DNA of 64,000 nucleotides from contig NZ_CP018091.1 of assembly GCF_001885215.1 (NCBI RefSeq), positions 248,001-312,000 of the forward strand, written 5' to 3'. Position 1 is the stretch's first letter, and every line of letters begins with the position of its first letter. Source of the DNA: Synechococcus sp. SynAce01 (GTDB taxonomy: Bacteria; Cyanobacteriota; Cyanobacteriia; PCC-6307; Cyanobiaceae). This document shows positions 28,584-60,110 of this stretch, in pieces. A program made the position numbers and the translations under genes. The notes under the pieces are model-generated. The model worked only from the letters and a program-made list of their open reading frames with translations. It made no database searches and was not told the DNA's origin.

Positions 28584-28599
28584 GCTGTGTTTGTTGCCC

Positions 28600-30114: not shown

Positions 30115-30184
30115 GGAACTGGATCGATGGTTTACACCTATCCCTGCTCTGCGCTGGGTAGGTATGGAGCGACTGTCCTGAGGC

Positions 30185-34590: not shown

Positions 34591-34632
34591 GAAATCGAGT
34601 TGAGGAGCGGGAGAGAACGAGGGGTTCGGGGG

Positions 34633-35199
34633 TCAGTTCTTTTTGCCCAGGCGCGAGGCCACCACCACCCCGCCAACCACCAGCACTGCGGCACCGGCAC
34701 CAATCACCAAGGGGTTGAGACCAGCCGCTTCTGCCGCGGTGGCGGCCACTGGGGTTGCCGCTGCCGTTGTGGCTCCTTCTCCGCTGGCTGCTGCTGCGCT
34801 CTGGCTCTTCTTGGACTCGGCGTAGAGAGAGAGTGCACCCTGGTTCACCACCTTCTCGCCAACTGTCACGCCGTCAGTCACTGCGATCTGATCGCCCTGA
34901 CTGGCACCTGTCTGAATGAAGACCGGGTCATAGCTGGAGCCGTACTTCACGAACACCAGCGGCTTGCCATCCGCATCCACCACGGCGGCGACGGGAATGG
35001 TGACAACACCACCAGCCTCTGTGGCTGCTGCGGTGGTGATTCCCAGCAGCGAATCGATCTCCGTGCTCGCCTTCACCTGGCGCACGTCCCCCGTCTGCTG
35101 AAACTCATCGCCATGCCCCACATGGGCCAGGGCCGGGCTGACGCTGCCGAGGGCCAGCGTTCCAAGGCTGAGGCTGCCGGCCAGAAGTAATGCGTGCAT
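34633..35199 (-). CDS. CzcB-like small envelope protein, first gene of efflux operon
   Basis: About 188 residues from ATG 35199 (in-frame start also at 35226). It has a signal peptide, then HVGHGDEFQQTG near the mature start and a segment like the C-terminal part of adaptor proteins (VVTIPVAAVVDADGKPLVFV, QGDQIAVTDGVTVGEKVVNQ). A single C-terminal transmembrane span follows (PLVIGAGAAVLVVGGVVVAS). Similar proteins in cyanobacteria are labelled cobalt transporter or efflux-associated, but their role is unproven. It probably leads the operon, transcribed divergently from the regulator. Confidence 0.75.
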   Translation of the reverse strand: MHALLLAGSLSLGTLALGSVSPALAHVGHGDEFQQTGDVRQVKASTEIDSLLGITTAAATEAGGVVTIPVAAVVDADGKPLVFVKYGSSYDPVFIQTGASQGDQIAVTDGVTVGEKVVNQGALSLYAESKKSQSAAAASGEGATTAAATPVAATAAEAAGLNPLVIGAGAAVLVVGGVVVASRLGKKN

Positions 35200-35261
35200 G
35201 CTGCTGCTGCCGCAAAGGCAGGACAAGGACTCGCCGAGGATGCCGCAGGTGGGATGAAAAA

Positions 35262-35300
35262 CAGGTGAAACCGCCTGTTCTCACTAGGATCAGCGTCACC
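35262..35300. promoter_or_regulatory. Divergent regulatory region with AACAGG/CCTGTT and a shared 23-bp element
   Basis: AACAGG-TGAAACCG-CCTGTT (6-bp inverted arms) overlaps a 23-bp block at 35278-35300 beginning TTCTCACTAGGATCAG and ending GCGTCACC. TAGGAT within it could be a -10 box. A block of 22 bp differing by one gap and one substitution lies at 37430-37451. Candidate binding site for the response regulator encoded next door. Confidence 0.55.
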
Positions 35301-35322
35301 CGCCGCCCCATGACCCAGGCCC

Positions 35323-36021
35323 ATGCCCCTGCGCATCCTGTTGGTCGAGGACGAGGCCGAGCTGGCCGCTGCAATCCAGGCCGTGCTCAGTGCCGAGCGG
35401 CATGTGGTTGATCACGTTGCTGAGGGCCTGGGGGCATGGAGTTTGCTCCGCAGCGATCTAGCCACGTACAACCTGGCGATCGTTGATTGGATGCTGCCGG
35501 GTCTGACGGGAGTTGACCTCTGCCGGCGCCTGCGTGGGGCCGGACTCGATCTGCCGGTGCTGATGCTCACGGCCCTGGCCGACACCAAGCACCGGGTTCA
35601 GGGCCTCGATGCCGGCGCCGACGACTACCTGAGCAAGCCGTTTGCGATGGAGGAACTACTGGCAAGGATCAGGGCGCTGCATCGGCGCCAGCCCAGTTAC
35701 CGCGAGCCTGTGCTCCGCGCTGGTTCTTACGTTCTCGATCCAGCTGAAGGCTGCCTCAGCGTCGAGGAGGCGCTTGGAACCACGACGATCGCTTTGTCTG
35801 CCAAGGAACTCCAGCTGATGGGCTACTTCATGGAGCATCCCCGCGAAATCATCCCGGGATCACGCTTGCGCGCCCAGCTCTGGTCGCTCGATGAGGATCC
35901 GATCAGCAATGTGGTCGCTGCCCAGGTGCGGCTGCTGCGGCGCAAGATCGCCAGTCACGGGCTGCCCTCTCCGATCGACACCGTGCCCTCGAAGGGCTAT
36001 CGCTTCGATCCGGAGCCCTAG
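35323..36021 (+). CDS. OmpR-family response regulator (NrsR/RppA-like)
   Basis: A 232-residue protein with an intact receiver domain: acidic pocket in LLVEDEAEL, phosphoacceptor Asp55 in LAIVDWMLPG, the Thr in MLTALAD and the Lys in DDYLSKPFAM. The C-terminal winged-helix domain contains KELQLMGYFMEHPREI and TVPSKGYRF. The gene lies divergently from the metal-efflux operon and 15 bases before its kinase. In Synechocystis the equivalent pair controls nickel resistance, so a Ni/Co-responsive role is likely. Confidence 0.9.
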   Translation: MPLRILLVEDEAELAAAIQAVLSAERHVVDHVAEGLGAWSLLRSDLATYNLAIVDWMLPGLTGVDLCRRLRGAGLDLPVLMLTALADTKHRVQGLDAGADDYLSKPFAMEELLARIRALHRRQPSYREPVLRAGSYVLDPAEGCLSVEEALGTTTIALSAKELQLMGYFMEHPREIIPGSRLRAQLWSLDEDPISNVVAAQVRLLRRKIASHGLPSPIDTVPSKGYRFDPEP

Positions 36022-36036
36022 CGAGGGAAGCGCCCC

Positions 36037-37413
36037 ATGCTCAAGCTTGGTCCCATTCCCCGCAGTCGTCTGCGGCTGGCGGCTGCCTACCTGGTGGTGA
36101 TCGGGGTGATCCTCTATGGCGCGGGTTACGGGATGTTTGGACTGTTGATGCGCGCCAACTGGTCGGCCCTCGAGAGCGAGGTGGAAACTCTGGCCGGCAC
36201 CTTGCATGACAGCCTCAAGCCGTTGCTGCCTGCAGAAGCCAGGCCCTCTCCCGAGCTCGCCTCGGTTCTCCCCGGTCTTTGCCTGGTGGGTGATCCCTGT
36301 CTGGCACCCGCTTCGCTGCTGCCGCGCCATGCCGTGAGCATCACTGATTCGGAGCGCTTCTACCTGCGTCTGCTTGATCCCCGTGGCGTTCTGATCGCTC
36401 ACTCCCCTGGATCACCAAAAGCCAGGGGGCCAAGCCCTGGCCCCACCTGGACCGTGGTGGAGGAACAAGCAAAGGAGCGCTTCCTGCAGTATTCGATCCA
36501 TCTGCACCGCTCCGACACGCCAGGGCAGCCAGGCACAGATCAGAAGGAACTGGATTGGGGGTATCTGCAGATCGGGCGCAGCTTGCGCGGGCTCGATGCG
36601 GAGCGGGAACGGCTGTGGTGGTCGGCCCAAACGATCGTGGTGTTGGCGCTGCTGGTGGCAGCCCTGGCCAGCTGGTGGTTGTCCGGCCTGGCGATGCGGC
36701 CGCTGCTGGCGGCCTACCGGCAGCAGGAGCAGTTCACCGCCGATGCGGCCCACGAACTACGCGCACCTCTGACCAACCTGCTGGCCGTGGTGGACGCCCA
36801 CAGGTCGCAGCAGTCAGCTGACCCGATCGCCATTAACCAGAGACTGGATCAGACGCTGGCCGTGGTCACTGGGCAGGGGCAACGGCTGAGCCGCTTGATC
36901 AGCGACCTTCTGCTTCTCGCCCGGCTCGATGGACCTGAGGCAGCTTCGGCGCCGCAGCCGTGTCCATTGGCGCAGATCGCGCGCGACCTGGTGGAGGAGA
37001 CCAGCGAGGCGGCGGCGGCGGCAGGCGTGCAGCTGCACCTGGTGGGTGGTGCAGACGACTTTGACGTGCTGGGAGTGGAGCCTGATCTCTATCGGCTCGT
37101 ATCCAACTTGCTCCTCAACGCAATTCAGTACACGCCTACGGGTGGAGAAGTGGTTCTGAGAGTGAGGCGAGAGGGAAGCCATGGGCTGCTGCAAGTACAG
37201 GACAGCGGTATTGGCATCACCCCGGCGGATCAACGACGCATCTTCGATCGTTTCTTTCGCAGTGATCCAGGTCGCTCCCGTCGTCAGGGCGGCACCGGCC
37301 TTGGACTCTCGATCGTGGCGGCCATTGTGCGCCGCCATCACGGACAGATCTCTGTGGCCTCAAGCGTTGGTTCCGGAAGTGTCTTCTCTGTGAAGCTCCC
37401 CATCGCTGGCTGA
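36037..37413 (+). CDS. Sensor histidine kinase (NrsS/RppB-like)
   Basis: A 458-residue kinase. TM1 (LAAAYLVVIGVILYGAGYG) and TM2 (AQTIVVLALLVAALASWW) flank a periplasmic sensor of about 165 residues with two cysteines (LCLVGDPCL), a possible metal site. HisKA has the phosphorylated His239 in AAHELRAPLTN. HATPase motifs are LLLNAIQYTPTGG (N box), DSGIGI (G1) and GGTGLGLSIVAAI (G2). All catalytic motifs are intact. Co-transcribed with the response regulator upstream. Confidence 0.92.
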   Translation: MLKLGPIPRSRLRLAAAYLVVIGVILYGAGYGMFGLLMRANWSALESEVETLAGTLHDSLKPLLPAEARPSPELASVLPGLCLVGDPCLAPASLLPRHAVSITDSERFYLRLLDPRGVLIAHSPGSPKARGPSPGPTWTVVEEQAKERFLQYSIHLHRSDTPGQPGTDQKELDWGYLQIGRSLRGLDAERERLWWSAQTIVVLALLVAALASWWLSGLAMRPLLAAYRQQEQFTADAAHELRAPLTNLLAVVDAHRSQQSADPIAINQRLDQTLAVVTGQGQRLSRLISDLLLLARLDGPEAASAPQPCPLAQIARDLVEETSEAAAAAGVQLHLVGGADDFDVLGVEPDLYRLVSNLLLNAIQYTPTGGEVVLRVRREGSHGLLQVQDSGIGITPADQRRIFDRFFRSDPGRSRRQGGTGLGLSIVAAIVRRHHGQISVASSVGSGSVFSVKLPIAG

Positions 37414-45303: not shown

Positions 45304-46348
45304 TGTGTAGTCCCACCACGTTGTTCAGCTGACAAGGGGGTGTGAGGTCGCCAGGGTCGGAGTGTCACCACCGTCCCAAGACCTCACACACCATGCATAG
45401 CCACCCTCTGGCCCGACTGACACCCATCAGTCGGGAACGGCTCATCCGCCGGCATCTCGATGAAGGCGTGCCACTCAAAGCCCTTGCAGCACAAGCCGGG
45501 ATCAGCCTGCGTACGGCCTACAAGTGGCTCTCCAGGTTTCGAGCAGGCGGCGTAGCGGCACTGGCGGATCGACGGAGTGTTCGCCGCACCCAGCGGCGGA
45601 CGCTCGATCCGCAGCAACTCCAGCAGGCTGTAGACCTGCGGCACCAGCGCTGCACGCTCCGCCGCATCGCCAGGGCTCTCTGTGCGCCCCTCTCCACCGT
45701 TGGTCGGCTCATGAAGGGCCTGGGTCTGGGACGACTGAAGAACCTTGACCCCAAACGTCTTGTTCGTCGCTACCAGTGGGAGCGCCCCGGGGACATGATC
45801 CATGTCGACATCAAACAGCTGGCCAGGTTTGAGCGGGTCGGCCACCGCATCACCGGCGACCGTCGTCAAGGCTCCTCCCGAGGTGCCGGCTACGAAAAGG
45901 TGCACGTCGCGATCGACGACGCCACCCGCCTGGCCTACGTCGAAGTGCTGGCTGATGAGCAGAAGGAGACGACCGTTGGATTCCTGGCCCGTGCCGTCGG
46001 CTGGTTCTCTGAGCAGGGGATCACCTGTCGGCGGATCCTCTCAGACAACGGCCCCTCCTACCGCTCTGGAGACTGGCGAAAAGCCTGTCGCGCCTTGGAT
46101 CTCAAGCCCATCCGCACCAAGCCCTACACGCCGCAGACCAACGGGAAGGCCGAACGGTTCATCAAAACCATCCTGGCGGAATGGGCTTACGTGATCGCCT
46201 ACCAAACATCGGATGAACGCAACCGCTGGCTACCCCGCTATCTGGGGATCTATAACGGCAGCAGGTGCCACATGGCTCTCGGTGGCCTCACTCCTCAGCA
46301 ATGCCTCCAGCGGCTGCTGATCGCTGAATGACCTGGTGAGAAAGCACA
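45304..46348 (+). mobile_element. IS481-family insertion sequence (1045 bp)
   Basis: The left end TGTGTAGTCCCACCACG pairs with the right-end complement TGTGCTTTCTCACCAGG, and both continue to TTCAGC. It is flanked by TCTAGA duplications. One transposase gene inside, apparently intact. Terminal TGT and a single DDE gene are standard for IS481. Confidence 0.9.
45393..46331 (+). CDS. IS481-family transposase
   Basis: 312 residues. The N-terminal helix-turn-helix reads VPLKALAAQAGISLRTAYKW then LSRFRAGGVAALADRR. The rve-type DDE core is intact: DMIHVDIKQLARF, RRILSDNGPSYRSGDW, PYTPQTNGKAERFIKTIL. With the well-preserved ends and target duplication, this is the copy most likely to be functional in the window. 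Confidence 0.95.
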   Translation: MHSHPLARLTPISRERLIRRHLDEGVPLKALAAQAGISLRTAYKWLSRFRAGGVAALADRRSVRRTQRRTLDPQQLQQAVDLRHQRCTLRRIARALCAPLSTVGRLMKGLGLGRLKNLDPKRLVRRYQWERPGDMIHVDIKQLARFERVGHRITGDRRQGSSRGAGYEKVHVAIDDATRLAYVEVLADEQKETTVGFLARAVGWFSEQGITCRRILSDNGPSYRSGDWRKACRALDLKPIRTKPYTPQTNGKAERFIKTILAEWAYVIAYQTSDERNRWLPRYLGIYNGSRCHMALGGLTPQQCLQRLLIAE

Positions 46349-48389: not shown

Positions 48390-48629
48390 ATGGAGGCGAT
48401 CAGTGGCCGCAAGACGCTCCAGGAGATTGCCGCTGATCACGCGATCCACCCAATCCAGGTGAGCCAGTGGAAGAAGCAGATGCTGGAGGGCGCCAGCGAG
48501 CTGTTAGGCCGAGGCAAGAGCAGCAACGCCAAGGAGGATGTACAGGCCAAGGAGGCGGAGCTGTTCCAGCAGATCGGTCGTCTCCAGATGGAGCTGGAGT
48601 GGCTTAAAAAAAAGTCTCAGCTGCTGTGA
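48390..48629 (+). CDS. IS3 transposase orfA
   Basis: 79 residues from ATG 48390: the helix-turn-helix ISGRKTLQEIAADHAIHPIQ then VSQWKKQMLEGASELL, and a leucine-zipper end (LFQQIGRLQMELEWLKKKSQ) leading to the AAAAAAA slip site at 48607. The natural start may be further upstream: TTG at 48343 reads SKRR, and the frame TPYHSPEFKARVA just before 48390 belongs to the protein, so a one-base loss near 48360 is possible. Confidence 0.75.
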   Translation: MEAISGRKTLQEIAADHAIHPIQVSQWKKQMLEGASELLGRGKSSNAKEDVQAKEAELFQQIGRLQMELEWLKKKSQLL

Positions 48630-49197
48630 TGCCCGTGAACTGCGCAAGCTGGTCGACCACGATCACCCTGAGATCAGCATCACCCGGCAGTGTGAGCTGC
48701 TGGGGCTGCCACGATCCACGCTCTACTACCGGCCCACACCGATGCGTGAATCGACGCTGCGGATCATGGCCAGGATCGATGCTCTCTATCTGGAGGATCC
48801 CTGCAGCGGCAGCCGCCGGATGGTGGACTACCTGGCCAGAGAAGGGATCCCGATCAGCCGTGAGCGCGTGCGAAACCTCATGCGGCGCATGGGTCTACGG
48901 GCCATCTACCAGAAGCCACGCACCACAGTGCCAGTTGATCCATCGGAGCGCTTTCCCTGCCTGGTGGACCTCAAGGAGGTCAAGGAAGTGGATCAGGTTT
49001 GGGCAACGGATATCACCTATATCGCGCTGCGGAAAGGCTTCCTCTACCTCGTGGCTGTTGTGGATCTGTTTTCCCGGCATGTACTCAGTTGGAAACTCAC
49101 GGGCAGCCTTGACACGGAATTCTGCCTGGAGGCCTTGGAGATGGCTCTTGCTGGTGGGAGAAAGCCACAGATCTTCCACTCCGATCAGGGGTGTCAG

Positions 49198-51002
49198 CTC
49201 GGTTTCAAGTGGTCGTCGCAACACCTCATTCACTGAGGGATTTTGGGATGACGAGCAAGCATCAGCGGCAGATGGCCGTTCGCTCGATGAGGGGGAAAAT
49301 CCCCTCTCCTGGCCGTCCCTCGACAGCTCAGCACAAGCATCGAGTTCTTTTCTGGATGGCGATCGCTCAGGGGTTATCGAGCGAGAATGCCGCATCCGAG
49401 GCGGGCATCCCTCAAGCGATTGGAACGCGTTGGTTCCGCAATGCTGGCGGGATGCCTCCGATCGATCTGAACCCGCCTTCGGGCCGTTTCCTGTCCTTTT
49501 CTGAGCGGGAGGAGATAGCCATCCTCTGGGCGAGGAATCTGGGAGTCCGCGCCATTGCCCGTGAGCTGGGTCGCTCCGCCTCGACCATCTGCCGAGAGTT
49601 GCGCCGTAATTCCTCAACACGCAGCAATGCGTTGGCCTATCGGGCCACAACGGCACAGTGGCATGCTGAACGTCGCGCCAGACGTCCCAAAGTTGCCAGG
49701 CTCGCCGGGAACGGCCACCTGCGTAAGTATGTCCAGGAACGGCTTTCTGGCCAGATCACCCGCCCGAACGGTGATGTCGTGCCGGGTCCTGTTACAAGCT
49801 GGATCGGCCGCAGGCATGGTCGTCGTCAGGACCGGCTTTGGGCGACCTCCTGGAGCCCGGAGCAGATCTCGAACCGGCTCCGTATCGATTTTCCTGATGA
49901 TGCGTCGATGCGGATCTCTCATGAGGCGATCTATCAGGCTCTCTATGTTCAGGGCCGTGGAGCGTTGAAACGGGAACTTGTCGCGTGCCTGCGCACTGGG
50001 CGTGCCCTACGTGTTCCTCGCGCAAGGCGCCAGGCAAGCGGCAAGAACTTCCTCACCCCGGAGGTCATGATTTCCCAGCGGCCGGCCGAGGTTGACGATC
50101 GCGCCATTCCGGGGCATTGGGAAGGCGACCTCATCGTGGGGCTCAAGAGTTCAGCGATTGGAACGCTCGTGGAGCGCACCACCCGATTCACCCTGCTGCT
50201 GCACCTGCCCCGCATGCAGGGCCATGGAGAACAGCCACGGATCAAGAACGGCCCCCCACTGACCGGACATGGTGCAGAGGCGGTTCGCGATGCGATCGCT
50301 GCAACGATCGACACGCTTCCTGCTCAGCTGCGCAGATCCCTGACCTGGGACCAGGGAGCTGAGATGGCACAACACGCTCAACTCCGCATCGACACAGGCC
50401 TGAGGATCTTCTTCTGCGACCCGCATAGCCCCTGGCAACGCGGGTCGAATGAAAACACCAACGGGCTGCTGCGGCAGTACTTCCCAAAAGGTACTGATTT
50501 GTCCCGACACTCCCGTAACGAGCTTGATGCCGTCGCCCTGGCACTCAATACACGCCCACGCAAAACCCTCGGATGGAGGACCCCTGCTGAGGCCCTTGAC
50601 AATCATCTGAGGGCTTTGTGAAATCCCCTTTCTAATTCGCGACGGTGTTCTCGCGCATCGCTGCCATCGGACCTAAGCGACAGATCTGGCATTCTGTTCT
50701 CCCTGAAAACCACTGTGCATACTGGCTTTTGGATCCATAGGCACCGTCTGTTGAAACGATCATCAAGTGAGCCGGTGATCCATTTTTCCCTCTGAACAAA
50801 CCGCCTTGGCGGCAAGCGGGGGCGTCAGCCACCGATTGCCGACGAGGTGGAACCGCCCGCAAGCGGGCGGGGCCCAGCCGCTGCTGCTCGTTACTAACTG
50901 ATCGAAAAGAAATTTAAAAATGATGCAGCTGAGAAAACCCGTATCTACAAGCCCTTATGCTCCTTTTCCAACCCGGTGTTGCGACGACCGGTGGAATCCA
51001 CC
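49198..51002 (+). mobile_element. IS30-family insertion sequence (about 1.8 kb)
   Basis: Ends share GGTCGTCGCAACACC in inverted orientation (left about 49211-49225, right complement about 50975-50989) and are flanked by CAG at 49195-49197 and 51003-51005, a 3-bp target duplication. The transposase ends at 50621. The remaining 380 bases have a perfect CCGCCCGC-AA-GCGGGCGG hairpin (50853-50870) and are longer than expected for IS30. Confidence 0.8.
49248..50621 (+). CDS. IS30-family transposase
   Basis: 457 residues from ATG 49248. The N-terminal helix-turn-helix reads LSFSEREEIAILWARNLGVR then AIARELGRSASTICRELRRN. The DDE core includes PGHWEGDLIVG, LTWDQGAEMAQHAQL and WQRGSNENTNGLLRQYFPKG. 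A Gly/Arg-rich insertion lies at about residues 160-200. Intact throughout. Confidence 0.94.
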   Translation: MTSKHQRQMAVRSMRGKIPSPGRPSTAQHKHRVLFWMAIAQGLSSENAASEAGIPQAIGTRWFRNAGGMPPIDLNPPSGRFLSFSEREEIAILWARNLGVRAIARELGRSASTICRELRRNSSTRSNALAYRATTAQWHAERRARRPKVARLAGNGHLRKYVQERLSGQITRPNGDVVPGPVTSWIGRRHGRRQDRLWATSWSPEQISNRLRIDFPDDASMRISHEAIYQALYVQGRGALKRELVACLRTGRALRVPRARRQASGKNFLTPEVMISQRPAEVDDRAIPGHWEGDLIVGLKSSAIGTLVERTTRFTLLLHLPRMQGHGEQPRIKNGPPLTGHGAEAVRDAIAATIDTLPAQLRRSLTWDQGAEMAQHAQLRIDTGLRIFFCDPHSPWQRGSNENTNGLLRQYFPKGTDLSRHSRNELDAVALALNTRPRKTLGWRTPAEALDNHLRAL

Positions 51003-51388
51003 CAGTTCACCTCCGGTGACTTCGTGGCAAGGCTCAAGGCAGAGGAGATCAAGGTCAGCTGGTCGGGACGGAGGCGCTGTTACGACAACATCCTGGTGGA
51101 GAGGCTATGGAGAACAGTCAAATATGAGGAGGTGTATCTCCGTGCCTACAGCGATGGCTGGGAAGCGGAAATCAGCTTGGCCCGATTCCTTTGGAGGTAC
51201 TGCCATGTAAGACCACATAGCTCATTGGGCGGCAAAACCCCCAATGAGGTCTACAGTCAGATTCAACCCTGTTCTTCCCGCCCGAGGTTTACGATGTCAG
51301 GGGCCGAATCTGTCCAATAAAAGCCACCCACCTCAGATCCCAAGGGGCTGTGTGGCCTGTCCTGTTCATGTGGTGCCAACGGCAGCGA

Positions 51389-52825
51389 TCAATCCAGGGA
51401 AAAGGTCGGCAGAAAGTTCGCCACGTTGCATAGCTCAATATCGATCGCCCCAACATCGGTAAAATCCTGGCTGGTATTCCTGGTTCGCTCGATGAATCGA
51501 GCAGTTCTGACTGGGTGGGCCGTCAGCCCGACGAGGCGCTGAATCCAGTTTTTACGGGACACGGCTGGGACAAGACCCTGCAGCCCAAGGAACCAGGGAA
51601 TCAGTGAGGCTATGAGGCCAAGAGATTCAGATGGACGATGCGCGAAGGATGGCATGGAGATAGCGATCGAACGAATAAATGCATGCTGCGATTCGGCAAG
51701 AACCAGGGGCTCACAAAGGGTCCGAAGCTCAGATCCAGTTGTACTCAAAGCATCAATAAGGCGATCGGGATGACAAAGATAAGACTCATAACAAGTGGTC
51801 GGCTTAAGCTCTCGCTCAAGAAGACATCGCTTCATCCACTCAAGATCCACACTACCAAGCGAGTGATCGCTGTGGCAGCTGTAGACGAGGCCCCGCCGAT
51901 ACTGGACCGGGCAGAGATACTCCGGCTCAATCAACTCCGACGCCGCAGCATGATCGCTACAGATCACCGGCAATCCTGCATAACTGGCTTCAATGAGAAC
52001 TCGTCCAAGCGTCTCCAGATTAGAGGTGGTAGGAAACAACAGCACATCGATCCTGGCAAGGAAGTCCCAGATCTCGGCACTCGAGCGTGCAGGGGAATAG
52101 CTATAGACATCGGATATGCCGAGCGCCTGTACCAACATCTGGTCAACTAAATGCGGCTCACAGCTGGAGGAATGGTTGTGCCCGCAGGCGAACAACCTGT
52201 AGCGACGGGATGACAAACTTTTAGTCTCTTGATTCAGCTCAATTAACAAACGCACGAGATCTGGAAAGTTCTTGTCTTCCGAGATGCGCCCTAGATAACC
52301 AAGAATCAAGTCCGCGTCAGTGTTCCGAGAGCGCTTAGACAAAATCCGCTCACGCTCCGGAAAGCACACAGCAAGTGGATGAGAAAGAAGTGAAGGAAAA
52401 TGCTTGAGCCCTGGAAAGATTGCTTCAAATACGCCCCGAGCGTAGCGGCTGGGCACCAAGAGCGTGTCGTCGTACCGAAGAAAAGGATGGCAAAGAAACT
52501 CTTGAAATAGATAGCCGCTCCAGAGAGCAGTATGCACATCCCGGACGATTCGATAGGAAAGTCGAAGGTGTTCTCGGAGATAGAAATAATAATGCGCATG
52601 AGGACCTACATTGCTCACTACACAGTCGGCATTGGCCAACATTTCGACTGCGTAAGAGTCATCAGAAAGCAGCCGATTAAAATCATGGAAGTGCACGTTT
52701 AAAGCAGGCCCTGACCGATGCTTCAACAGCCAAGTCATGTTCTCGTGGGCAAAATTTACGCCATCACGCTGGGGCAACGCTGGATCGGTCCTGTAGTCAT
52801 GAAGGGTAACTCGAAATGTCTTCAG
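51389..52825 (-). CDS. GT4-type glycosyltransferase
   Basis: The first clear start is TTG at 52777 (462 residues), but coding sense continues upstream as LKTFRVTLHDYRTDPAL to a CTG at 52825. That CTG overlaps the previous stop as CTGA, where ATGA would be expected. The N-terminal GT-B half contains NVGPHAHYYFYLREHLRLSY. The C-terminal half has DLILGYLGRISEDKNFPDLV and the nucleotide-sugar motif NLETLGRVLIEASYAGLPVI. Sugar donor and acceptor are unknown. Last gene of a four-gene minus-strand set. GC is lower than the flanks. Confidence 0.85.
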   Translation of the reverse strand: MKTFRVTLHDYRTDPALPQRDGVNFAHENMTWLLKHRSGPALNVHFHDFNRLLSDDSYAVEMLANADCVVSNVGPHAHYYFYLREHLRLSYRIVRDVHTALWSGYLFQEFLCHPFLRYDDTLLVPSRYARGVFEAIFPGLKHFPSLLSHPLAVCFPERERILSKRSRNTDADLILGYLGRISEDKNFPDLVRLLIELNQETKSLSSRRYRLFACGHNHSSSCEPHLVDQMLVQALGISDVYSYSPARSSAEIWDFLARIDVLLFPTTSNLETLGRVLIEASYAGLPVICSDHAAASELIEPEYLCPVQYRRGLVYSCHSDHSLGSVDLEWMKRCLLERELKPTTCYESYLCHPDRLIDALSTTGSELRTLCEPLVLAESQHAFIRSIAISMPSFAHRPSESLGLIASLIPWFLGLQGLVPAVSRKNWIQRLVGLTAHPVRTARFIERTRNTSQDFTDVGAIDIELCNVANFLPTFSLD

Positions 52826-54441
52826 ATCAGGCTCTCCCCATCAAAAGGCTCAGTTGCTTGGAGGCCTGCAAGAGCAAGGATGGTGGCCGGCAGGTCCTCC
52901 AGTCGACCATGACGCAGCTTTTCACCTGGCTTGATTCCTGGACCAACAGCGAGAAGCAGGTTACTGACCTCGGTCCCATGCATCACATGCCCTCCAGAAC
53001 AGAAGAAGGGAAGAGGGCCAATTCGACCAAACTCCTCGCTATCCAATACATCAGCTGGAGGGCCAGAATCACCCCAGCGCACGATAAGGTCAGGGGGCAG
53101 GTGAGAACTTTCAAAAGGCGTTTCTCGCATGATCAACACATCATGTGCCAAGAATTTCCCGGTACGGGGATTCACGCATCGCAGGAGCAAGTCACGTAGC
53201 TCATGAAGAGTGGGGAGGAACTCCGCAGCATCGACCAGGCCTTCCACCTCACGCCCACGGACGTTCAGACGCACATAGCCATCTGCCACACTGGGGAGAG
53301 CGAAAGCCCGCATGCGGGGCCATAAGTTTCGGAACCAGTTGGCCGGATTCCAGCTGAGTGGATCTCCCGAAGCCTCCTGCTCAAAGGGACTGGAAATCAG
53401 AGCCTGCGCCGCCTCCCCCACGGTCTTCCAGACTTCAGCCTTCCAGTGCTCTCCATAGTCGTAGCGCCTAGAAGGCACTGGGGATCCAACCTCAGAAGTT
53501 GAGCCAATAGCGGTCTCACCTGGAAAGGCCCAGCGATACATCAGCTCTGGAAGAAGCGCCATACTGGGCACATCCATATGGTTGGCCGATACTTGATCAA
53601 TGGTGTAGACAATAAATGAAGTATCGTGACGCGCAAGTGTGTACAGCCTGGCCAGTGATCGGTCAATTTCGCGATAGACTTCAATGAGCGGCGAATTCCC
53701 TTCAGGAGATTCATCAGCCTGCGAGGGCAGAGCTCCTTCCCCTAAATGCCAAAGCATGTGATTCGCTGTATGGCTTTCTGAATAAAGAGAAAGAAAGAGA
53801 TCCCAGTCTTCTGCTTGCAGAAGCTCAGCGCAGATAGCCGTTCGACGGCGGACAGATTCACACAATTGTCTCTGAAGTTTCAGCAAGTCCTTCTTGATAT
53901 AAAGACTGGGAAGGGAAACAGAGCGCTCAGGCTTGCCTGAGATCGGATCAATCATTAACTTCAGGCCATCTTCGATTGGCGGATAGAGCCCATGAACACT
54001 CTCAAGATTTGCCAATAACCATTCTGGCTGACTCAAGGGAGCAAATGTATTGGTCTCGCTCCCCCAACCTGCTACTTGGAGGCCGTTGAGATCAGAAGAC
54101 ATAGGCGCCACCATATCGAACACACAGATTCGATGAGAAGCATGGCCGGAATAGAACAGTGGCAGCGAGGCCGAGTCTCTGTGAATTGGCAGAACAGCAT
54201 AGAGATATTTCTGTGCATCAAAGCAGCATCCTGGATGCGTTGTAGCTCGTCCCGTGAGAAAAACATCCCAACAGGATTCGTTCAGGAAAAGCTTAGTGTA
54301 AGAATAGTTACCTGTCGCACCATTCGAGCGCATCCAAGCCAAAAATGGAAGCTCCCCAGAATCCAATGCGTCCATAAGGAGCTCAGTATTAGGAGCATCG
54401 ATTCCAAGCGCAATAACAGATCTTTTGACACTATCAGTCAT
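52822..54441 (-). CDS. Alkaline-phosphatase-superfamily phosphohydrolase
   Basis: A 539-residue protein of the type I phosphodiesterase/AlkP fold. An N-terminal metal ligand lies in VIALGIDAPNTELL (Asp15), the candidate nucleophile in LNESCWDVFLTGR (Ser56), further metal-binding residues in LYSESHTANHMLWHLGEG and YTIDQVSANHMD, and the C-terminal FFCSGGHVMHGTEVSNLLLA has the late His. No signal peptide, so cytoplasmic. It could remove or transfer phosphate-linked groups from a nucleotide- or lipid-linked intermediate. It sits between the ATP-grasp gene and the glycosyltransferase, six bases from the former. Confidence 0.85.
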   Translation of the reverse strand: MTDSVKRSVIALGIDAPNTELLMDALDSGELPFLAWMRSNGATGNYSYTKLFLNESCWDVFLTGRATTHPGCCFDAQKYLYAVLPIHRDSASLPLFYSGHASHRICVFDMVAPMSSDLNGLQVAGWGSETNTFAPLSQPEWLLANLESVHGLYPPIEDGLKLMIDPISGKPERSVSLPSLYIKKDLLKLQRQLCESVRRRTAICAELLQAEDWDLFLSLYSESHTANHMLWHLGEGALPSQADESPEGNSPLIEVYREIDRSLARLYTLARHDTSFIVYTIDQVSANHMDVPSMALLPELMYRWAFPGETAIGSTSEVGSPVPSRRYDYGEHWKAEVWKTVGEAAQALISSPFEQEASGDPLSWNPANWFRNLWPRMRAFALPSVADGYVRLNVRGREVEGLVDAAEFLPTLHELRDLLLRCVNPRTGKFLAHDVLIMRETPFESSHLPPDLIVRWGDSGPPADVLDSEEFGRIGPLPFFCSGGHVMHGTEVSNLLLAVGPGIKPGEKLRHGRLEDLPATILALAGLQATEPFDGESLI

Positions 54442-54447
54442 GGGTTA

Positions 54448-56352
54448 TCACGGAGTAAGGAAGGGAGTCTGAATCGAGGTCTTTACTGCCGAATCAACCA
54501 CTCGCAGTTTGCTGACGTGGGGCTTGATCAGCTGCAAGAGCCGCTCGGAGTCTGGGTGGTCTTGCGGCAAGGCATCGCTAAGCAAAGTGCATGTGCCAAA
54601 TGAGGGAGCAGGAAGCCCCCTCTGAAGAATCTCGTTGGTTCTCAACGTGATCAGAGCTGATCTCAGGCGTTGGTCCTGAATCAGGATCTGAGCAGCGGAG
54701 AAGCCATTGGGAGACTTACACGCCAATGGCTTCTCATCAATCCAGGCCTCGTCAGCAAGGACTAGCCCATTACAGTGCAATTGCCGCGCCAATTCATGGG
54801 CCAGCGCATGCAGAACCCCAGGCTTCATGCCATCAGAAACTATCAAAAGGTGAACCAGGACAGGCTCTGCACATGTAAGCATATTAGCCAAGATCTCATG
54901 GTAAACCAAGGGAGTATCAAACGTACCGATCTGAGGCTGGGCGTTCACCTCGCAGACAATGCCTCCGCCATCCTTCCACGACACATTAACGTCAGGTATG
55001 ATCAGGTCGATTCCGGCGATGTCCAGCCGGAAGGTTCGCGCAACATGAAGTGCAAGCTCTAGATTCTCAGGATGTACTTGGTCTTTGTCGATCACGATTT
55101 GGGTTCCACCTGCTGAGATGTTCGCTTTGCCGCGAAGCCTCACAACAGTGCCCTCCTTAGGAATTGAGAGAGAATCTAGCCCTTGGTAGGCAAGAAGCAT
55201 GTGAGCTTCTGGATCGAGTTCGAGTCGCATCTTGCCAGTCCTTCGCCAGATCCTCTGATGCAGCTCCGAGGACTGCTCCCTGAGCACGAGACCAGCAACA
55301 GTTGTCCTGCCGTCGCCAACAACTCTGCCGGGAATTCTGTGCATGATCTTGACGATTTGACCATGAGCGACTGTGAATCGATAGTCCTCTCCAGCGATGA
55401 ACTTCTCGACGAGAATCCTCCCAGATAACTTTGCAGCCTCTCGATAGGCCATCCCGACAGACTGCTCATCCCTCAAACCAGCAAAGACCCCGCGGCCCTG
55501 CTCTTGGTCCGCTGGCTTGATCACCACGGGATAGCCCAGTTCACCTGCCAGCCGGATGGCCTCTTCTTCTGAACGGCAGATTTGATGGGTGGGCCCAGGC
55601 AGCCCATGCTGCTTAAGAAAGCAGGCTGTCCGCGCCTTATCTTTCGCCAGAGCCACGGACATGCAAGGAGTCTGATCCGTCAGAGAACTGTCGATCCAGC
55701 GTGTTGAAGCACCGTGGCCAATGGCCATGATATATCTGTCGATCCGAATTACCGGTAGGGCCAGCTCATGGGCCGCCTTGACAAAATAGAAGTTGTTGGT
55801 CCCCTTCAGGCCAAAGGCACTCAGTTGTCTGATCAACTGATCCCTGCTCCGGTGAATCTCCTCCAGGCGATTGTTCACGGCAGCAGGAGATTGGACGAAG
55901 GCATTGATCAGGAATTCAAGCCAGCGCAGGGTGTCCACCGAAGCCCGTGGAAACGAGTAGGGAAGGAAAAGATCGTGCGCCTCCAAGGGGACATCCCTCC
56001 CCTCGATCCTTGCAGGACACGAGTGATAGGGTCCGAACACAGGAAGATTCGCCAGGCGCTGGATCTCGAGATGGGTCATCAGAATCCCATCGAGGAGATC
56101 CAGGACGGGGGACTCTCTGCCCCCATCGCCATGAGTTGCATCAGGCTCCACGACCCTGGAGAGGAAGTCCCTGACCTTGCCTGCTGCTGTGGGCCTGTCA
56201 CGAAGGATCCCGATTCGGCCTTCAAGGAAAGGCTGACGGATTCCGTAGCCCATGCCCTGATAGACCCGGAACTGGGTCGAGAAACGAAGAAGAGAGAAGT
56301 TCTTGCCTCGTGGTCCTGATCGCTGAGACCGATCGGATGAGGGGAGCGCCAC
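54448..56352 (-). CDS. Cyanophycin-synthetase-like ATP-grasp protein lacking Mur P-loop
   Basis: 634 residues from GTG 56352. The central ATP-grasp part is like CphA: SLTDQTPCMSVALAKDKART, ELGYPVVIKPADQEQGRGVF, ILVEKFIAGEDYRFTVAHGQ, VVGDGRTTVAGLVL, then KANISAGGTQIVIDKDQVHP and DLIIPDVNV, ending with ICEVNAQPQIG. In CphA a Mur-ligase domain with GTNGKTT follows. Here the corresponding stretch reads LLIVSDGMKPGVLHALAHEL, so the second ATP site is gone, and the rest (EAWIDEKPL, RTNEILQRGLPAPSFGTCTL) is a degenerate Mur-like domain. It could ligate an amino acid to a carboxylate or peptide. Confidence 0.8.
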   Translation of the reverse strand: MALPSSDRSQRSGPRGKNFSLLRFSTQFRVYQGMGYGIRQPFLEGRIGILRDRPTAAGKVRDFLSRVVEPDATHGDGGRESPVLDLLDGILMTHLEIQRLANLPVFGPYHSCPARIEGRDVPLEAHDLFLPYSFPRASVDTLRWLEFLINAFVQSPAAVNNRLEEIHRSRDQLIRQLSAFGLKGTNNFYFVKAAHELALPVIRIDRYIMAIGHGASTRWIDSSLTDQTPCMSVALAKDKARTACFLKQHGLPGPTHQICRSEEEAIRLAGELGYPVVIKPADQEQGRGVFAGLRDEQSVGMAYREAAKLSGRILVEKFIAGEDYRFTVAHGQIVKIMHRIPGRVVGDGRTTVAGLVLREQSSELHQRIWRRTGKMRLELDPEAHMLLAYQGLDSLSIPKEGTVVRLRGKANISAGGTQIVIDKDQVHPENLELALHVARTFRLDIAGIDLIIPDVNVSWKDGGGIVCEVNAQPQIGTFDTPLVYHEILANMLTCAEPVLVHLLIVSDGMKPGVLHALAHELARQLHCNGLVLADEAWIDEKPLACKSPNGFSAAQILIQDQRLRSALITLRTNEILQRGLPAPSFGTCTLLSDALPQDHPDSERLLQLIKPHVSKLRVVDSAVKTSIQTPFLTP

Positions 56353-56355
56353 GAC

Positions 56356-57312
56356 TCAGGCTCCCACTACTTCGGACCGACCCATAGATTCCGTATGGAG
56401 CCACTCCAGGATACAAGCCTTGGCCGTATGGACATTGAGGGCATGAACCAGCACGGGATCACCCGGAGCGGCATCCTTGAGGAAAGCGGGGATGGCGGCA
56501 TGGACCTCTCCGACATAGCGAAGGTCCACCCCCGGATCGGCTGCATAACCGGCCTCAAGAATCATCGCCACAGCCTCTTCCTCAACGCGACCAGTATCCT
56601 GTTCACCTCGTGCAATCCGGACCACATCGAACAGCCGACAGGCTTCAGCTGCCATGGAGCACATCCAGTGATCAGCAGCGACGAAGCCCAGTCGAAGCAA
56701 GATCCGCGTGCGGGAGTTAGGCTTCGTGTTAAGCGACTCCATCAGCACAGAAATGGACTGTAGCGTTTCAGTGGTTCCCGCCCAGCTCAGAACGATGGAT
56801 CGCCCAGGAGTATCGATTCTTTCAGATCGACCTGGATTGTGGCTCGAATCGAAGTCAAGGATCCGCTCTCGAATCAGATTTGGAGCCACGCCCATCCTCT
56901 CGGCCATCACCGCCACGAATGCCGCTGCGATCACTGTCCCCCGGCACAGACCACCCCAGGCACCTTGGATCTCCGCTGCAGGAATCTCACACAGTGTGGT
57001 GTCGCCGCGACACAGGACCACCACGCCATCGGGCCCATCTCGCCACAGGGCGGCCGCTTGCAGGTTGATCTCCTGGCGGCGGCTGGTGTTCTGCCGGGCC
57101 CTGACGCTGAGGATCGCGTTCAACGTCTCGTCGTCGCCGCCAGTGTTCTGGCGGATGTAGAGATCCGTTTTGAGGTAGCTGCGGATCTGATCGAGCAGCC
57201 GGCCTTCTGCCGGCAGGATCGCCATCAGCTCGGTGCCACCGAAGTTGCGGCTGTGCAACACCGCCTCGCTGCCGTAGTGGGGATGCTCAGGAGTCACCAG
57301 GTTCACGGCCAC
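56356..57312 (-). CDS. CphA Mur-ligase-like C-terminal protein, 5' end probably lost
   Basis: The frame is open to 57537, but bases above 57326 belong to the IS21 end, so a GTG at 57312 is the first usable start (about 318 residues). The C-terminal 200 residues resemble the glutamate-ligase domain of cyanophycin synthetase: GGLCRGTVIAAAFVAVMAER, LDFDSSHNPGRSERIDTPGR (CphA pattern NPGR), ACRLFDVVRIARGEQDTGRV and AAPGDPVLVHALNVH. The Mur P-loop domain and any ATP-grasp part are absent. It precedes the ATP-grasp gene by three bases. Probably the tail of a larger protein cut by IS21. Confidence 0.65.
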   Translation of the reverse strand: MAVNLVTPEHPHYGSEAVLHSRNFGGTELMAILPAEGRLLDQIRSYLKTDLYIRQNTGGDDETLNAILSVRARQNTSRRQEINLQAAALWRDGPDGVVVLCRGDTTLCEIPAAEIQGAWGGLCRGTVIAAAFVAVMAERMGVAPNLIRERILDFDSSHNPGRSERIDTPGRSIVLSWAGTTETLQSISVLMESLNTKPNSRTRILLRLGFVAADHWMCSMAAEACRLFDVVRIARGEQDTGRVEEEAVAMILEAGYAADPGVDLRYVGEVHAAIPAFLKDAAPGDPVLVHALNVHTAKACILEWLHTESMGRSEVVGA

Positions 57313-57331
57313 ATCAGACTCCTTGCTATCC

Positions 57332-57380
57332 GGCGACAATCTGGTTGAGGGGTCGCGCCAAACAGGTTGACCGCTCTTGA
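57332..57380 (+). repeat. IS21 left-end terminal repeats
   Basis: Two tandem units, CAATCTGGTTGAGGGGTCGC and CAAACAGGTTGACCGCTC, at about 57338-57380. The same unit (CAATCAGGTTGATGGGTGGC, CAATCTGGTTGACCGG) is found inverted at the right end. Confidence 0.7.
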
Positions 57381-57423
57381 GGGGCTGAGCTGAATCCAGT
57401 TGCCATGCGCAGGGCACCGGCCC

Positions 57424-59021
57424 ATGCCAGCTCCCCTTACCGCTCAACAGATTGCGCTGTACATGTCCAAACGACGAGTCAGCAGCCGCCAGGAGGTGGC
57501 TGCTGCAGCGGCGGGTATCTCGGTGAGTAGTGCTCACCGGATCGATTCAGGCCGCCTCCAACCCAAAGCCGCCAAGCCCCCAGCAGACGCCGACCTGACC
57601 CGTTGGTTGAGGTTTGGGAGCCCCTGTTGGTGCCGTTATTGGAGCGCCATCCAGCTCTGACGCCCACCACGTTGTTGGAGCACCTGCAGGAGAAAAAGCC
57701 AGACCAGGACTGGATTCCTGTCAAACGCACCCTGCAGCGTCGTGTGCAGCAGTGGAAGGCGTTGCAGGGCCCACCGCCGGAGGTGATGTTCCCCCTGGCC
57801 TATCAGCCCGGCGAGATCGGCTTTTGCGATTTCACCAAGGTCAAGCGGGTGGAGATCACAGTGCGGGGCGAGCCCTTTCCGCACCTGCTGTTCCACTACC
57901 GCCTGGCCTGGAGCGGCTGGGCCTACGGCCAGGTGGTGCACGGCGGCGAAAGCTTTGTGGCTCTCTCAGAAGGGTTGCAGAACGCCCTGGCCGCCTGCGG
58001 TGGTGTGCCCAGAGAGCTGCGCACGGATCGGCTTTCGGCTGCCAGTCGCAATCGTGATGGCAGTTACGCCATCGACATCACGCCCCGCTACCAAGCCCTC
58101 TGCGCCCACTACCACCTTGCTCCCAGCCGCAACAACCGCGGCGTGGCCCAAGAGAACGGCATCGTCGAGGCGCCCCATGGCCATGTCAAACGGCGGCTGG
58201 AGCAGAAGCTGCTGCTGCGCGGCAGCTGTGATTTCGACGAGCCGGCCGAATACGGCGAGCTGCTCTCCGAGGTGTTCAGTGCCCTCAATGCCCCACGGCA
58301 GCGGCGCTATGAGCAGGAGTTCGAGGTCCTGGGCACCTTGCCTGCCTTCCGATTCGCAGATTACGAGCTGCTGACTGTGCGTGTGCGTAGCACCAGCACG
58401 ATCGAGGTGCGGCAGGTCGTCTACTCCGTGCCGCCGAGCCTGATTGGCCGTCAGGTCACGGTGCGGCTGCACCATGACCGGCTGATCGTTTACCTCGGTA
58501 GTGACTGGGTTTGCCAGTTGCCCAGGGTCTACGGCAGCGGCTGCCATGGACCCCGGGCTTGGTGTATCGACCTGGAGCACCTGATCGATGGGTTGCGCGC
58601 CAAACCCCGCGCCCTGCTGCATTGCCGCTACCAACGCCAGCTGTTCCCTGATACCCGCTGGTGGGATGTCTGGCAGCGCCTGCTTGCCAGCGGTGACCGC
58701 GACGCGGCGGCCCGGCTGATGGTCGAAGCGCTGTATGTCGCCGTGCGGGTGGCGTCATTTGAGCTGGTGCTCGCCTTTCTGCAGCAGGCGCAGCAGCGCA
58801 AAACCCTGTCCCTCTCGCTCTTGCAGCAGCGCTTCCGGGTGCCGCCCCGCACAGGCAACCTGCCTGATCTCGTCATTCCCCAACACCTGCTGGCCTCCTA
58901 TGACCACCTCCTCCCCGGTGCCCCGCTCTCAGGCGGTGGAAGCGGCCCTGCCGCTGCTGCTCAAACAGCTCAAGCTGGCGCGGTTCCGCAGCCACTGGCA
59001 GCCGCTCGCTCAGCAGGCTGA
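57424..59021 (+). pseudogene. istA: IS21 transposase istA, frameshifted
   Basis: The N-terminal HTH (QQIALYMSKRRVSSRQEVAA then GISVSSAHRID) starts at ATG 57424. Near 57580 a one-base indel shifts the frame; the remainder, VEVWEPLLVPLLERHPAL onward, is open from about 57603 to 59021. The rve core is clear: GEIGFCDFTKVKRVEIT, RELRTDRLSAASRNRDGSYA, HYHLAPSRNNRGVAQENGIV and EAPHGHVKRRLEQKLLLRGS. Ends about 120 bases inside istB. Inactive as read. Confidence 0.88.
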
Positions 59022-59703
59022 GGCCGAGGGCTGGAGCCCCGGCCAGTTCCTCTATGCCCTCTGCGAGCAGGAGGTGGATCACCGTCAGCTGGCACGGCAC
59101 CAGCGCCTCCTGCGGGAGGCTCATCTGCCCTGGCAGAAAGGACTCGATGGCTTTGATCAGCAGCAGATCGAGGCCAAGCATTGGCAGGAGCTGCAGGTAC
59201 TGGCCCGCAGCCACACCTGGCTGCTGCAGGCCGAGAATCTGCTGCTGTTTGGCCCCAGCGGCGTGGGCAAGACCCACCTGGCCATAGCCATCACAATGGC
59301 GATGATCGAGCAGGATCAACCCTGCCGCTTCTTCCCGGCCACCGCTCTGGTGCAGCTGCTGCAGAAGGCCAAGGCCAGCTACGAGCTGCCGGCCGTCATC
59401 CAGAAGTTGGATCGCTACGCCTTGCTGGTGATCGACGACATCAGCTACGTGCGCCGCAACGAGCTGGAAACCTCGGTGCTGTTTGAGCTGATCTGCCACC
59501 GCTACGAACGCCGCTCGTTGCTGGTGACCTCCAACCAGCCGTTCCGCGAGTGGGACACGATTTTTCCAAGTGGATCCATGACCGTGGCAGCGGTGGACCG
59601 GTTGGTGCACCACTGCCACATCGTGGGCATCAAAGGCGAGAGCTACCGTCAGAAAGAAGCTGCTGCAAGGGTTTCTAGTGATTCCAGTGATCCGCCTATG
59701 TAA
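58900..59703 (+). CDS. istB: IS21 helper ATPase istB
   Basis: 267 residues. The IstB/DnaC-like AAA+ domain shows Walker A LFGPSGVGKTHLAIAI, Walker B LLVIDDISYV and sensor residues in RRSLLVTSNQPFREWDTIF. It is the regulator that loads IstA on targets. Intact, and overlaps the istA end. Confidence 0.93.
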   Translation: MTTSSPVPRSQAVEAALPLLLKQLKLARFRSHWQPLAQQAEAEGWSPGQFLYALCEQEVDHRQLARHQRLLREAHLPWQKGLDGFDQQQIEAKHWQELQVLARSHTWLLQAENLLLFGPSGVGKTHLAIAITMAMIEQDQPCRFFPATALVQLLQKAKASYELPAVIQKLDRYALLVIDDISYVRRNELETSVLFELICHRYERRSLLVTSNQPFREWDTIFPSGSMTVAAVDRLVHHCHIVGIKGESYRQKEAAARVSSDSSDPPM

Positions 59704-59956
59704 TTGACGCGGGCGACATGGCCGTCACGATCAATGGCCGCAGCAACCCAGCTCGCCAGAAACAAGGCGGCGACACGAAAACTGGCCCACCAGCCTTGAA
59801 ATTGACGCCCGACCCACAACTTGATTGACGTCACGCGACAGCATGGTCAAGATCCAGTACCTACATGGAACCTCAAGCTTGCAGGAGGTTCAAAACAGGG
59901 GGATGCCACCGGTCAACCAGATTGACGCCACCCATCAACCTGATTGACACGGGACA
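59702..59956 (+). repeat. IS21 right-end repeated ATTGACG motifs
   Basis: ATTGACGCGGGCGACATGG (59704), ATTGACGCCCGACCCACAAC (59801), ATTGACGTCACGCGACAG (59824), ATTGACGCCACCCATCAACC (59921) and ATTGACACGGGACA (59943). Five units in about 255 bases, inverted relative to the two at the left end; probable IstA binding sites. Confidence 0.7.
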
Positions 59957-60110
59957 GCAGGCTGAGCCCGATCTCAGCGCAGGCACTCGCCAGCCTGGCA
60001 CCGGCTGCATTCGCCTCGGCGATCAGCTCAATGGCCCTATGCCGAGTCGCAGCAGTGGTCAGCCTTCCGCGTCCTCCGAGCAGAAGGCTTCCCACTTTTT
60101 TCGCAGCACC
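59957..60110 (-). pseudogene. IS3-type orfB N-terminal remnant
   Basis: Reading minus: LTTAATRHRAIELIAEANAA then GARLASACAEIGLSL, the start of OrfB of the same IS3-type element. It is cut at the IS21 right end. The rest of orfB is not found on the left side of IS21. Confidence 0.75.

Follow-up and report, generated by a model that had tools for sequence, protein, structure and literature searches.

A predicted amide-ligase gene cassette related to cyanophycin synthetase and its apparently decayed copy in Synechococcus sp. SynAce01

What do two adjacent genes that each resemble part of cyanophycin synthetase (CphA) do in a small cyanobacterium, in the company of a hydrolase-like gene and a glycosyltransferase gene? 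CphA combines ATP-grasp and Mur ligase domains and makes a polymer of aspartate and arginine used for nitrogen storage. The question is raised by the minus strand of the window, the whole stretch of 64,000 nucleotides analysed here (Synechococcus sp. SynAce01, contig NZ_CP018091.1, positions 248,001 to 312,000), where an earlier note had described a four-gene cluster around a split synthetase. All four open reading frames (ORFs) are present at that place (57537(57312)-56356, 56352-54448, 54441-52822 and 52777-51389, hereafter genes 1 to 4), with the gaps of 3 and 6 bases that had been reported and with a GC content lower than that of the surroundings (0.540 for 51354-57055 versus 0.618 for 30-47 kb); the overlap of 1-4 bases was not found, the first start codon of the gene 4 frame (TTG 52777) lying 44 bases past the stop codon of gene 3. 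Comparison with other genomes indicates that the locus holds, in decayed form, a relocated cassette encoding two ligases (ligase 1 and ligase 2), a protein resembling the alkaline phosphatase (AlkP) superfamily and a family 4 glycosyltransferase (GT4). No published account of this gene set was found in the open-licence literature by title or start of abstract, among the matches listed.

With gene 2 as the query, the same four genes were found in the same order in Cyanobium sp. CZS48M, a metagenome-assembled genome (locus L021), and in Synechococcus sp. Cruz-7E5 (L022), which by their contig coordinates are genomes G061 and G164 of the samples described below, the window's genome being G000. 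In both, gene 1 is intact, coding for 862 and 861 aa, and the search for a conserved gene order in other picocyanobacteria that had been recommended has returned a neighbourhood recurring with gene 1 whole in two genomes of the family. Nucleotide homology to the intact L021 cassette covers 51354..57055 of the minus strand (75% identity) and that to L022 covers 51383-57055 (72%), the right end falling on the same base. Gene 2 (54448..56352, minus strand, 634 aa) encodes a CphA-like ATP-grasp ligase with a degenerate Mur domain, gene 3 (52822..54441, minus strand, 539 aa) the AlkP-superfamily-like protein, 67% and 66% identical to its L021 and L022 counterparts, and gene 4 (51389..52777, minus strand, 462 aa from its TTG) the glycosyltransferase, 73% and 66% identical to theirs, for which the GT4 call is borne out by a match to PF00534 (Glycos_transf_1; 4.3e-14, 52.9 bits against a cut-off of 26.4). 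The GT4 ORFs of the two relatives start 17 residues after the window's TTG.

The idea of a split synthetase did not survive this comparison: gene 1 is a decapitated remnant fused to a piece of BrxC, gene 2 is a separate paralogue, and the relatives carry both whole. Residues 148-376 of the chimeric gene 1 product match the CphA C-terminus (TIGR02068, 9.1e-12), as its description as a Mur-ligase-like C-terminal protein implied, and residues 72-166 match BrxC (PF25796, 3.7e-17). Since homology to the relatives stops at 57055 and leaves the last ~231 residues (56356..57055, minus strand; 86% identity over 231 aa to the 862-residue L021 protein), the N domain, the ATP-grasp domain and the Mur P-loop of ligase 1 have all been lost, and the layout of CphA1 (a single chain of ~870 aa with N, ATP-grasp and Mur domains), which is seen in the L021 and L022 proteins, is not seen in the window. 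At the nucleotide level, the brxC-like fragment fused in frame (57063..57316, minus strand) is 71% identical to the brxC that this genome carries elsewhere and 69% identical to the G002 gene; brxC of G001 is not matched. The chimeric frame is open, starting at GTG 57312 within the fragment and preceded by an AAGGAG-type site. Because a full-length brxC (983 bits to NF033441) lies at C1:111746-115177 of G000 (L087, L073), the genome may hold a bacteriophage exclusion (BREX) system besides the fragment, which, being only 71% identical, seems to derive from a different BREX locus. No second copy of either ligase was found in G000: when ligase 1 was the query, the sole matches were the remnant and gene 2 (3 of 9 candidates scored), and gene 2 as the query found itself alone (6 of 6 scored). 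With ligase 1 truncated and no further copy found, this genome probably has a broken pathway, either dead or shortened. The cassette frames are open in the window; probably either the truncation is recent or the remaining genes still matter.

On one side of the intact cassettes is uvrB and on the other a gene for a bacterial sugar transferase, after which comes an aspartokinase gene (Pfam assignments made on L021 alone). The two flanking genes, uvrB and the sugar-transferase gene, stand end to end, 9-42 bases apart, at five of seven uvrB loci that have no cassette (G000, G001, G002, G003 and G147); in the other two, G026 and G284, no sugar-transferase gene was found at the uvrB locus. In G000, the cassette (~0.30 Mb) lies among insertion sequences, ~1.1 Mb away from uvrB (1.447 Mb), an arrangement best read as a change of place by the cassette. 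At the empty site of G147 (L066), the 32 bases that follow the uvrB stop agree with the beginning of ligase 1 at 22-23 positions, versus 7-13 in 20 shuffles, and this one case is perhaps the scar of a cassette loss. In both relatives, too, GC is lower in the cassette (0.578 and 0.577) than beside it (0.65-0.70), although the ligase 1 gene itself has 0.64. In the window's genome, a rearrangement would have cut ligase 1 short by its first ~630 residues, joining what was left to the brxC fragment.

The nature of the ligases was addressed through residues mapped on a 47-sequence alignment that showed no offset at either of two anchor motifs. PMC9427784 assigns roles to residues of the ATP-grasp (G) and Mur-type (M) sites of CphA1, including His267 and Glu215, and has the lid residue H748 in contact with ATP; further roles are given in PMC9262961. 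In our reading of the reference row, H748 falls within the DYAHNP motif. The whole ligase 1 proteins of the relatives match cyanophycin synthases in the PDB at up to 3.3e-103, and all five members of the ligase 1 clade keep the ATP residues of the G site (K220, K261, D431, E450) along with R309, the aspartate-binding residues R323, N394, S396 and R458, and G456. In their M site, K499, T500, E558 and H586 are kept in 5/5 and D585 in none, and the DYAHNP and DDDTRGR Mur motifs are missing. All five have Lys rather than His at 267, have Gln, Arg or Lys rather than Glu at 215, and lack the Cx19HxxEH residues of the N domain; H267 and E215 are each present in 17 of 18 CphA1 rows. Lysine at 267 nevertheless fits an active enzyme, since it is found in 5/5 of the CphA2 rows.

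Gene 2 resembles CphA through its ATP-grasp part (NCBIfam NF010623, 5.7e-76, 256 bits versus a cut-off of 877; best match to PDB cyanophycin synthases, 6.9e-52). The three members of its group all keep K220, K261, R309, R323, N394, S396, D431 and E450, and all replace E215 by Ala, H267 by Gln, G456 by Gln and R458 by Gly, while no M-site residue is consistently kept and the Mur domain is dead. The earlier description of an ATP-grasp protein with CphA motifs stands as regards the ATP-grasp residues, but the protein is a ligase apart from both CphA1 and CphA2. In the tree, ligase 1 (5 rows), gene 2 (3 rows) and CphA1 (18 rows) form separate supported groups, and the CphA2 group (5 rows, 100/100) excludes gene 2; as the tree program warned of long branches, the tree is read here for these groups and not for the order among them. 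The labels CphA1 and CphA2 are ours and rest on length and layout; a check of one CphA2 row gave 887 bits to 8fxh, which, like 7ta5, we take to be CphA2. An ordinary CphA1 or CphA2 is rejected on the residue pattern together with the tree.

The distribution of the genes was followed in an even sample of 300 genomes of the family and in 386 genomes of the phylum. By search and tree, the ligase 1 clade is present in five family genomes (G061, G164, G147, G026 and G284), besides the remnant in G000; the search itself matched 15 genomes, the others being eight whose proteins fall elsewhere in the tree and G234 (35 bits), which is unplaced. A ligase 2 profile, from gene 2 and its kin, gave more than 911 bits in six family genomes and 253 bits for the next best. 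These are the same six genomes that carry ligase 1, as a remnant in one of them; a caution is that the ligase 2 profile was built from the very six sequences it recovers, though the ligase 1 search used a single sequence and the tree groups them independently. The six genomes fall in four genera (g1, g6, g24, g59), and the two ligase trees are alike, with L021 and L022 set against G147 together with (G026, G284). G147 belongs to genus g59, as do G061 and G164, but has the other version, a pattern that points to horizontal movement. In the window's own genus, G001, G002 and G003 gave no match at the cut-offs of the two ligase searches. Two short pieces of a CphA-type ligase were seen in G001:C45 (L091 9189-9558); they span 45-49 residues at 42-43% identity, one of them had been flagged with a stop, and they may be what is left of the pathway in that genus. 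In the phylum, a ligase 1 profile at E 1e-120 found 108 genomes with places at 404-453 bits, on a bit scale that differs from that of the single-query family search, and these are taken, each without placement in the tree, to be CphA1.

The other version of the gene set pairs ligase 2 with oxygenases. In G026 (L058 6225-10715), ligase 2 is followed by a cytochrome P450 gene and a TauD-family gene; G147 (L145 5686-10238) has the same order with a 180-aa ORF between ligase 2 and the P450; G284 (L061 292-6775) carries ligase 2, P450, a 150-aa ORF and ligase 1 in one run, the ligase 1 frame breaking close to the contig end. The TauD gene accompanies the pair only in G026 and G147, where ligase 1 lies elsewhere in the genome, in G147 between a methyltransferase gene before it and a PGA_cap gene after it. 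These runs look like uncharted small biosynthetic clusters. They share with the window's cassette the ligase 2 clade and the presence of ligase 1 in the same genome, and differ from it by having oxygenases in place of the AlkP-like protein and GT4. A more distant relative of gene 2 in Polynucleobacter (L023, 34% identity) has a gene for an AMP-binding protein ~6 kb away.

The product of gene 3 is harder to place. The AlkP-superfamily call is reached by a chain through kin and not directly: the window protein matches nothing in Pfam at 0.01, its L022 orthologue matches PF01663 at 1.6e-4 (21.8 bits, under the gathering score of 23) and more distant kin at 1.7e-21. A profile of the group gave eight short C-terminal matches to PDB sequences (choline sulfatases, phosphoglycerate mutases and PafA; E 0.009-0.2), and 19 stretches of viral contigs that fitted the pattern of its alignment include no relative. 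Active sites of this superfamily contain metal ligands and a Ser/Thr nucleophile. In an alignment of 22 sequences, H224, H228, D451 and H485 are invariant, E222 is kept in 21 and D15 in 19, the four invariant residues being candidates for the metal ligands. Residue 283 is Gln in the window and His in both orthologues, most other sequences having Gly with His one place earlier. Close orthologues occur in three of the 300 family genomes (G000, G061 and G164), with four weaker matches; 15 of the 386 phylum genomes match at 1e-15, close only in G000. Full-length homologues in other cyanobacteria show about 28-33% identity. A recurring cluster of amino-acid type was seen around the AlkP-like gene on a Planktothrix plasmid and in G584 (L116 2547-10327 and L120 8374-16410): the former has phytanoyl-CoA dioxygenase, AlkP, L-aspartate oxidase, asparagine synthase and aminotransferase genes, resembling the PhyH dioxygenase, aminotransferase, asparagine synthase and aspartate-oxidase-like flavin adenine dinucleotide enzyme of the latter.

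By taking these observations together, an amide-ligase pathway independent of nonribosomal peptide synthetases (NRPSs) can be proposed, to which we give about an even chance, with a short glycosylated amide as the product and GT4 and the AlkP-like protein as tailoring enzymes. Both ligases would be active in forming amide bonds, and neither would make cyanophycin. Pairwise ratios of nonsynonymous to synonymous substitution rates (dN/dS) of 0.14-0.24 among the window, L021 and L022 speak for the proposal. Because the aspartate-binding residues of CphA1 are kept, the G site of ligase 1 would probably add an Asp-like residue to a carboxylate, its M site probably joining a second amine other than arginine; ligase 2 would add another residue with its G site alone, and the short amide-linked product, perhaps containing Asp, would be glycosylated by GT4 and altered by the AlkP-like protein. 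A broader proposal is offered more tentatively, at somewhat worse than even chances: the family Cyanobium/Synechococcus would possess a so far undescribed class of amide natural products that arise independently of NRPSs. An invariant pair of CphA-like ligases, not of the cyanophycin kind, would build them; the genes would travel as cassettes, and tailoring would be either by a glycosyltransferase and an AlkP-like protein or by a P450 and a TauD-type dioxygenase.

Several points weigh against the proposed pathway. The key catalytic H267 of CphA1 is replaced in both ligases, by Lys in ligase 1 and by Gln in gene 2, and the loss of D585, DYAHNP and DDDTRGR means that the M site of ligase 1 could be inactive. 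Aspartate as the substrate rests on residues transferred through an alignment. The exact four-gene set occurs in just three genomes, one of them broken, so that the AlkP-like protein and GT4 could be passengers, and no P450 gene is among the neighbours scanned around the Polynucleobacter relative of ligase 2 (L023). In the gene 3 family, no Ser or Thr is consistently conserved, the two columns that we take as candidates for the nucleophile varying widely; the idea of a dephosphorylated product is therefore conjectural, in spite of the conserved His, Asp and Glu. AlphaFold2 models from 3-row alignments of the AlkP-like protein and gene 2 have mean predicted local distance difference test scores of 30.6 and 35.1, too low to be used. 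Finally, among changes unique to one sequence in genes 2-4, the ratio of nonsynonymous to synonymous changes is 0.62-0.78 for the window (0.18-0.51 for L021, 0.55-0.81 for L022), a hint that the window branch is under relaxed constraint.

Other explanations have to be set beside this one. That genes 1 and 2 are an ordinary cyanophycin synthetase in two pieces, or a CphA1/CphA2 pair, is suggested by their best named matches, which are cyanophycin synthetases, and by the CphA2 length and dead Mur domain of gene 2, but is very improbable and largely refuted by the separate tree groups, by relatives in which both genes are separate and whole, by the absence of E215, H267, D585 and Cx19HxxEH from 5/5 ligase 1 proteins and of E215, H267, G456 and R458 from 3/3 gene 2 proteins, and by the lack of any CphA1 among the candidates scored in G000. 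The damaged CphA that was named in advance as the outcome fatal to the earlier interpretation is thus not what was found, and its view that the product is distinct from cyanophycin is favoured by the key residues. A useful role for what is left of gene 1, as a new small protein made of BrxC and the Mur lid, or continued work by gene 2, the AlkP-like protein and GT4 without ligase 1, is unlikely, although less so: the chimera has an open frame whose GTG start, preceded by an AAGGAG-type site, is plausible, and pairwise dN/dS among the window, L021 and L022 is 0.16-0.18 for the remnant and 0.14-0.24 for genes 2-4, with dS at 0.5-1.7 and so partly saturated. However, the remnant's values mostly reflect the time before the truncation, which three sequences cannot date, and its P-loop and catalytic core are gone.

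A more serious competitor, though still a doubtful one, is that amino acids or a short peptide are attached to a surface polysaccharide as decoration; the residue would be loaded by the ligases, and the AlkP-like protein and GT4 would take part in glycan assembly. Fourteen loci with gene 3 homologues were fetched and eight scanned, with neighbours chosen by eye, and seven of the eight have genes for polysaccharide assembly in their vicinity (Polysacc_synt, Wzy_C, Poly_export, GNVR/AAA_31 or WecG families); on a Nostoc plasmid, the homologue belongs to a cluster annotated for exopolysaccharide, a PGA_cap gene stands next to one ligase 1 relative, and the cassette borders the sugar-transferase gene in L021 and L022. 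On the other hand, that sugar-transferase gene is also present in genomes without the cassette, genes for a flippase, a polymerase or export are lacking from the cassette, and three ligase 2 relatives sit with P450 and not with glycan genes. The eighth scanned locus (G584) and the Planktothrix plasmid locus are clusters of amino-acid type, and no glycan gene was seen by eye beside the weaker gene 3 homologues of G220 and G279. Should the amide-ligase pathway be the correct reading, small cyanobacteria would have put enzymes of the CphA type to use as amino-acid ligases that work in pairs on specialised metabolites, with the window's organism a clear case of a pathway cut by a rearrangement beside insertion sequences; as intact cassettes have only four genes, the product is directly testable.

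The insertion sequences enclose the locus on both sides. An IS21-type element (57324..59959, plus strand; 50-nt terminal inverted repeats, 80%) lies next to the brxC-like fragment and contains an IstA-like ORF (57603-59021, Mu-transpos_C_2) and an IstB-like ORF read by eye (58735-59703). On the left, insertion-sequence ORFs occupy 48538..51320 (plus strand), namely rve/HTH_21, HTH_38/rve, which we read as IS30-like, and an rve_3 fragment that ends 33 bases from the left limit (51354) of the L021 homology. Transposase-like ORFs at 45342-46331 of the window and at L087 10211-11200, in the brxC region of the same genome, have identical first residues. Elsewhere in the window (27621-37413), cation-efflux and resistance-nodulation-division metal-export genes were seen by eye near a two-component system, and ARAGORN found no tRNA gene within the window.

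Compared with known systems, the ligase 1 of the relatives shares with CphA1 a similar length and domain order (862 aa), the ATP and aspartate residues of the G site and the Mur P-loop, but differs in the replacement of E215 and H267, in the loss of D585 and of the DYAHNP and DDDTRGR motifs, in having no Cx19HxxEH primer site and in forming its own group. Gene 2 is like CphA2 in its ~630 aa, in a single ATP-grasp site with the ATP residues and in a dead Mur domain, but it stands outside the CphA2 group, has Q267 instead of K267 as well as Q456 and G458, and is found in a genome in which no CphA1 that could supply dipeptides was detected among the candidates scored. Gene 3 is linked to type I phosphodiesterases of the AlkP superfamily through kin that match PF01663 and through its conserved His, Asp and Glu, whereas the window protein itself goes unmatched at 0.01 and its nucleophile columns vary.

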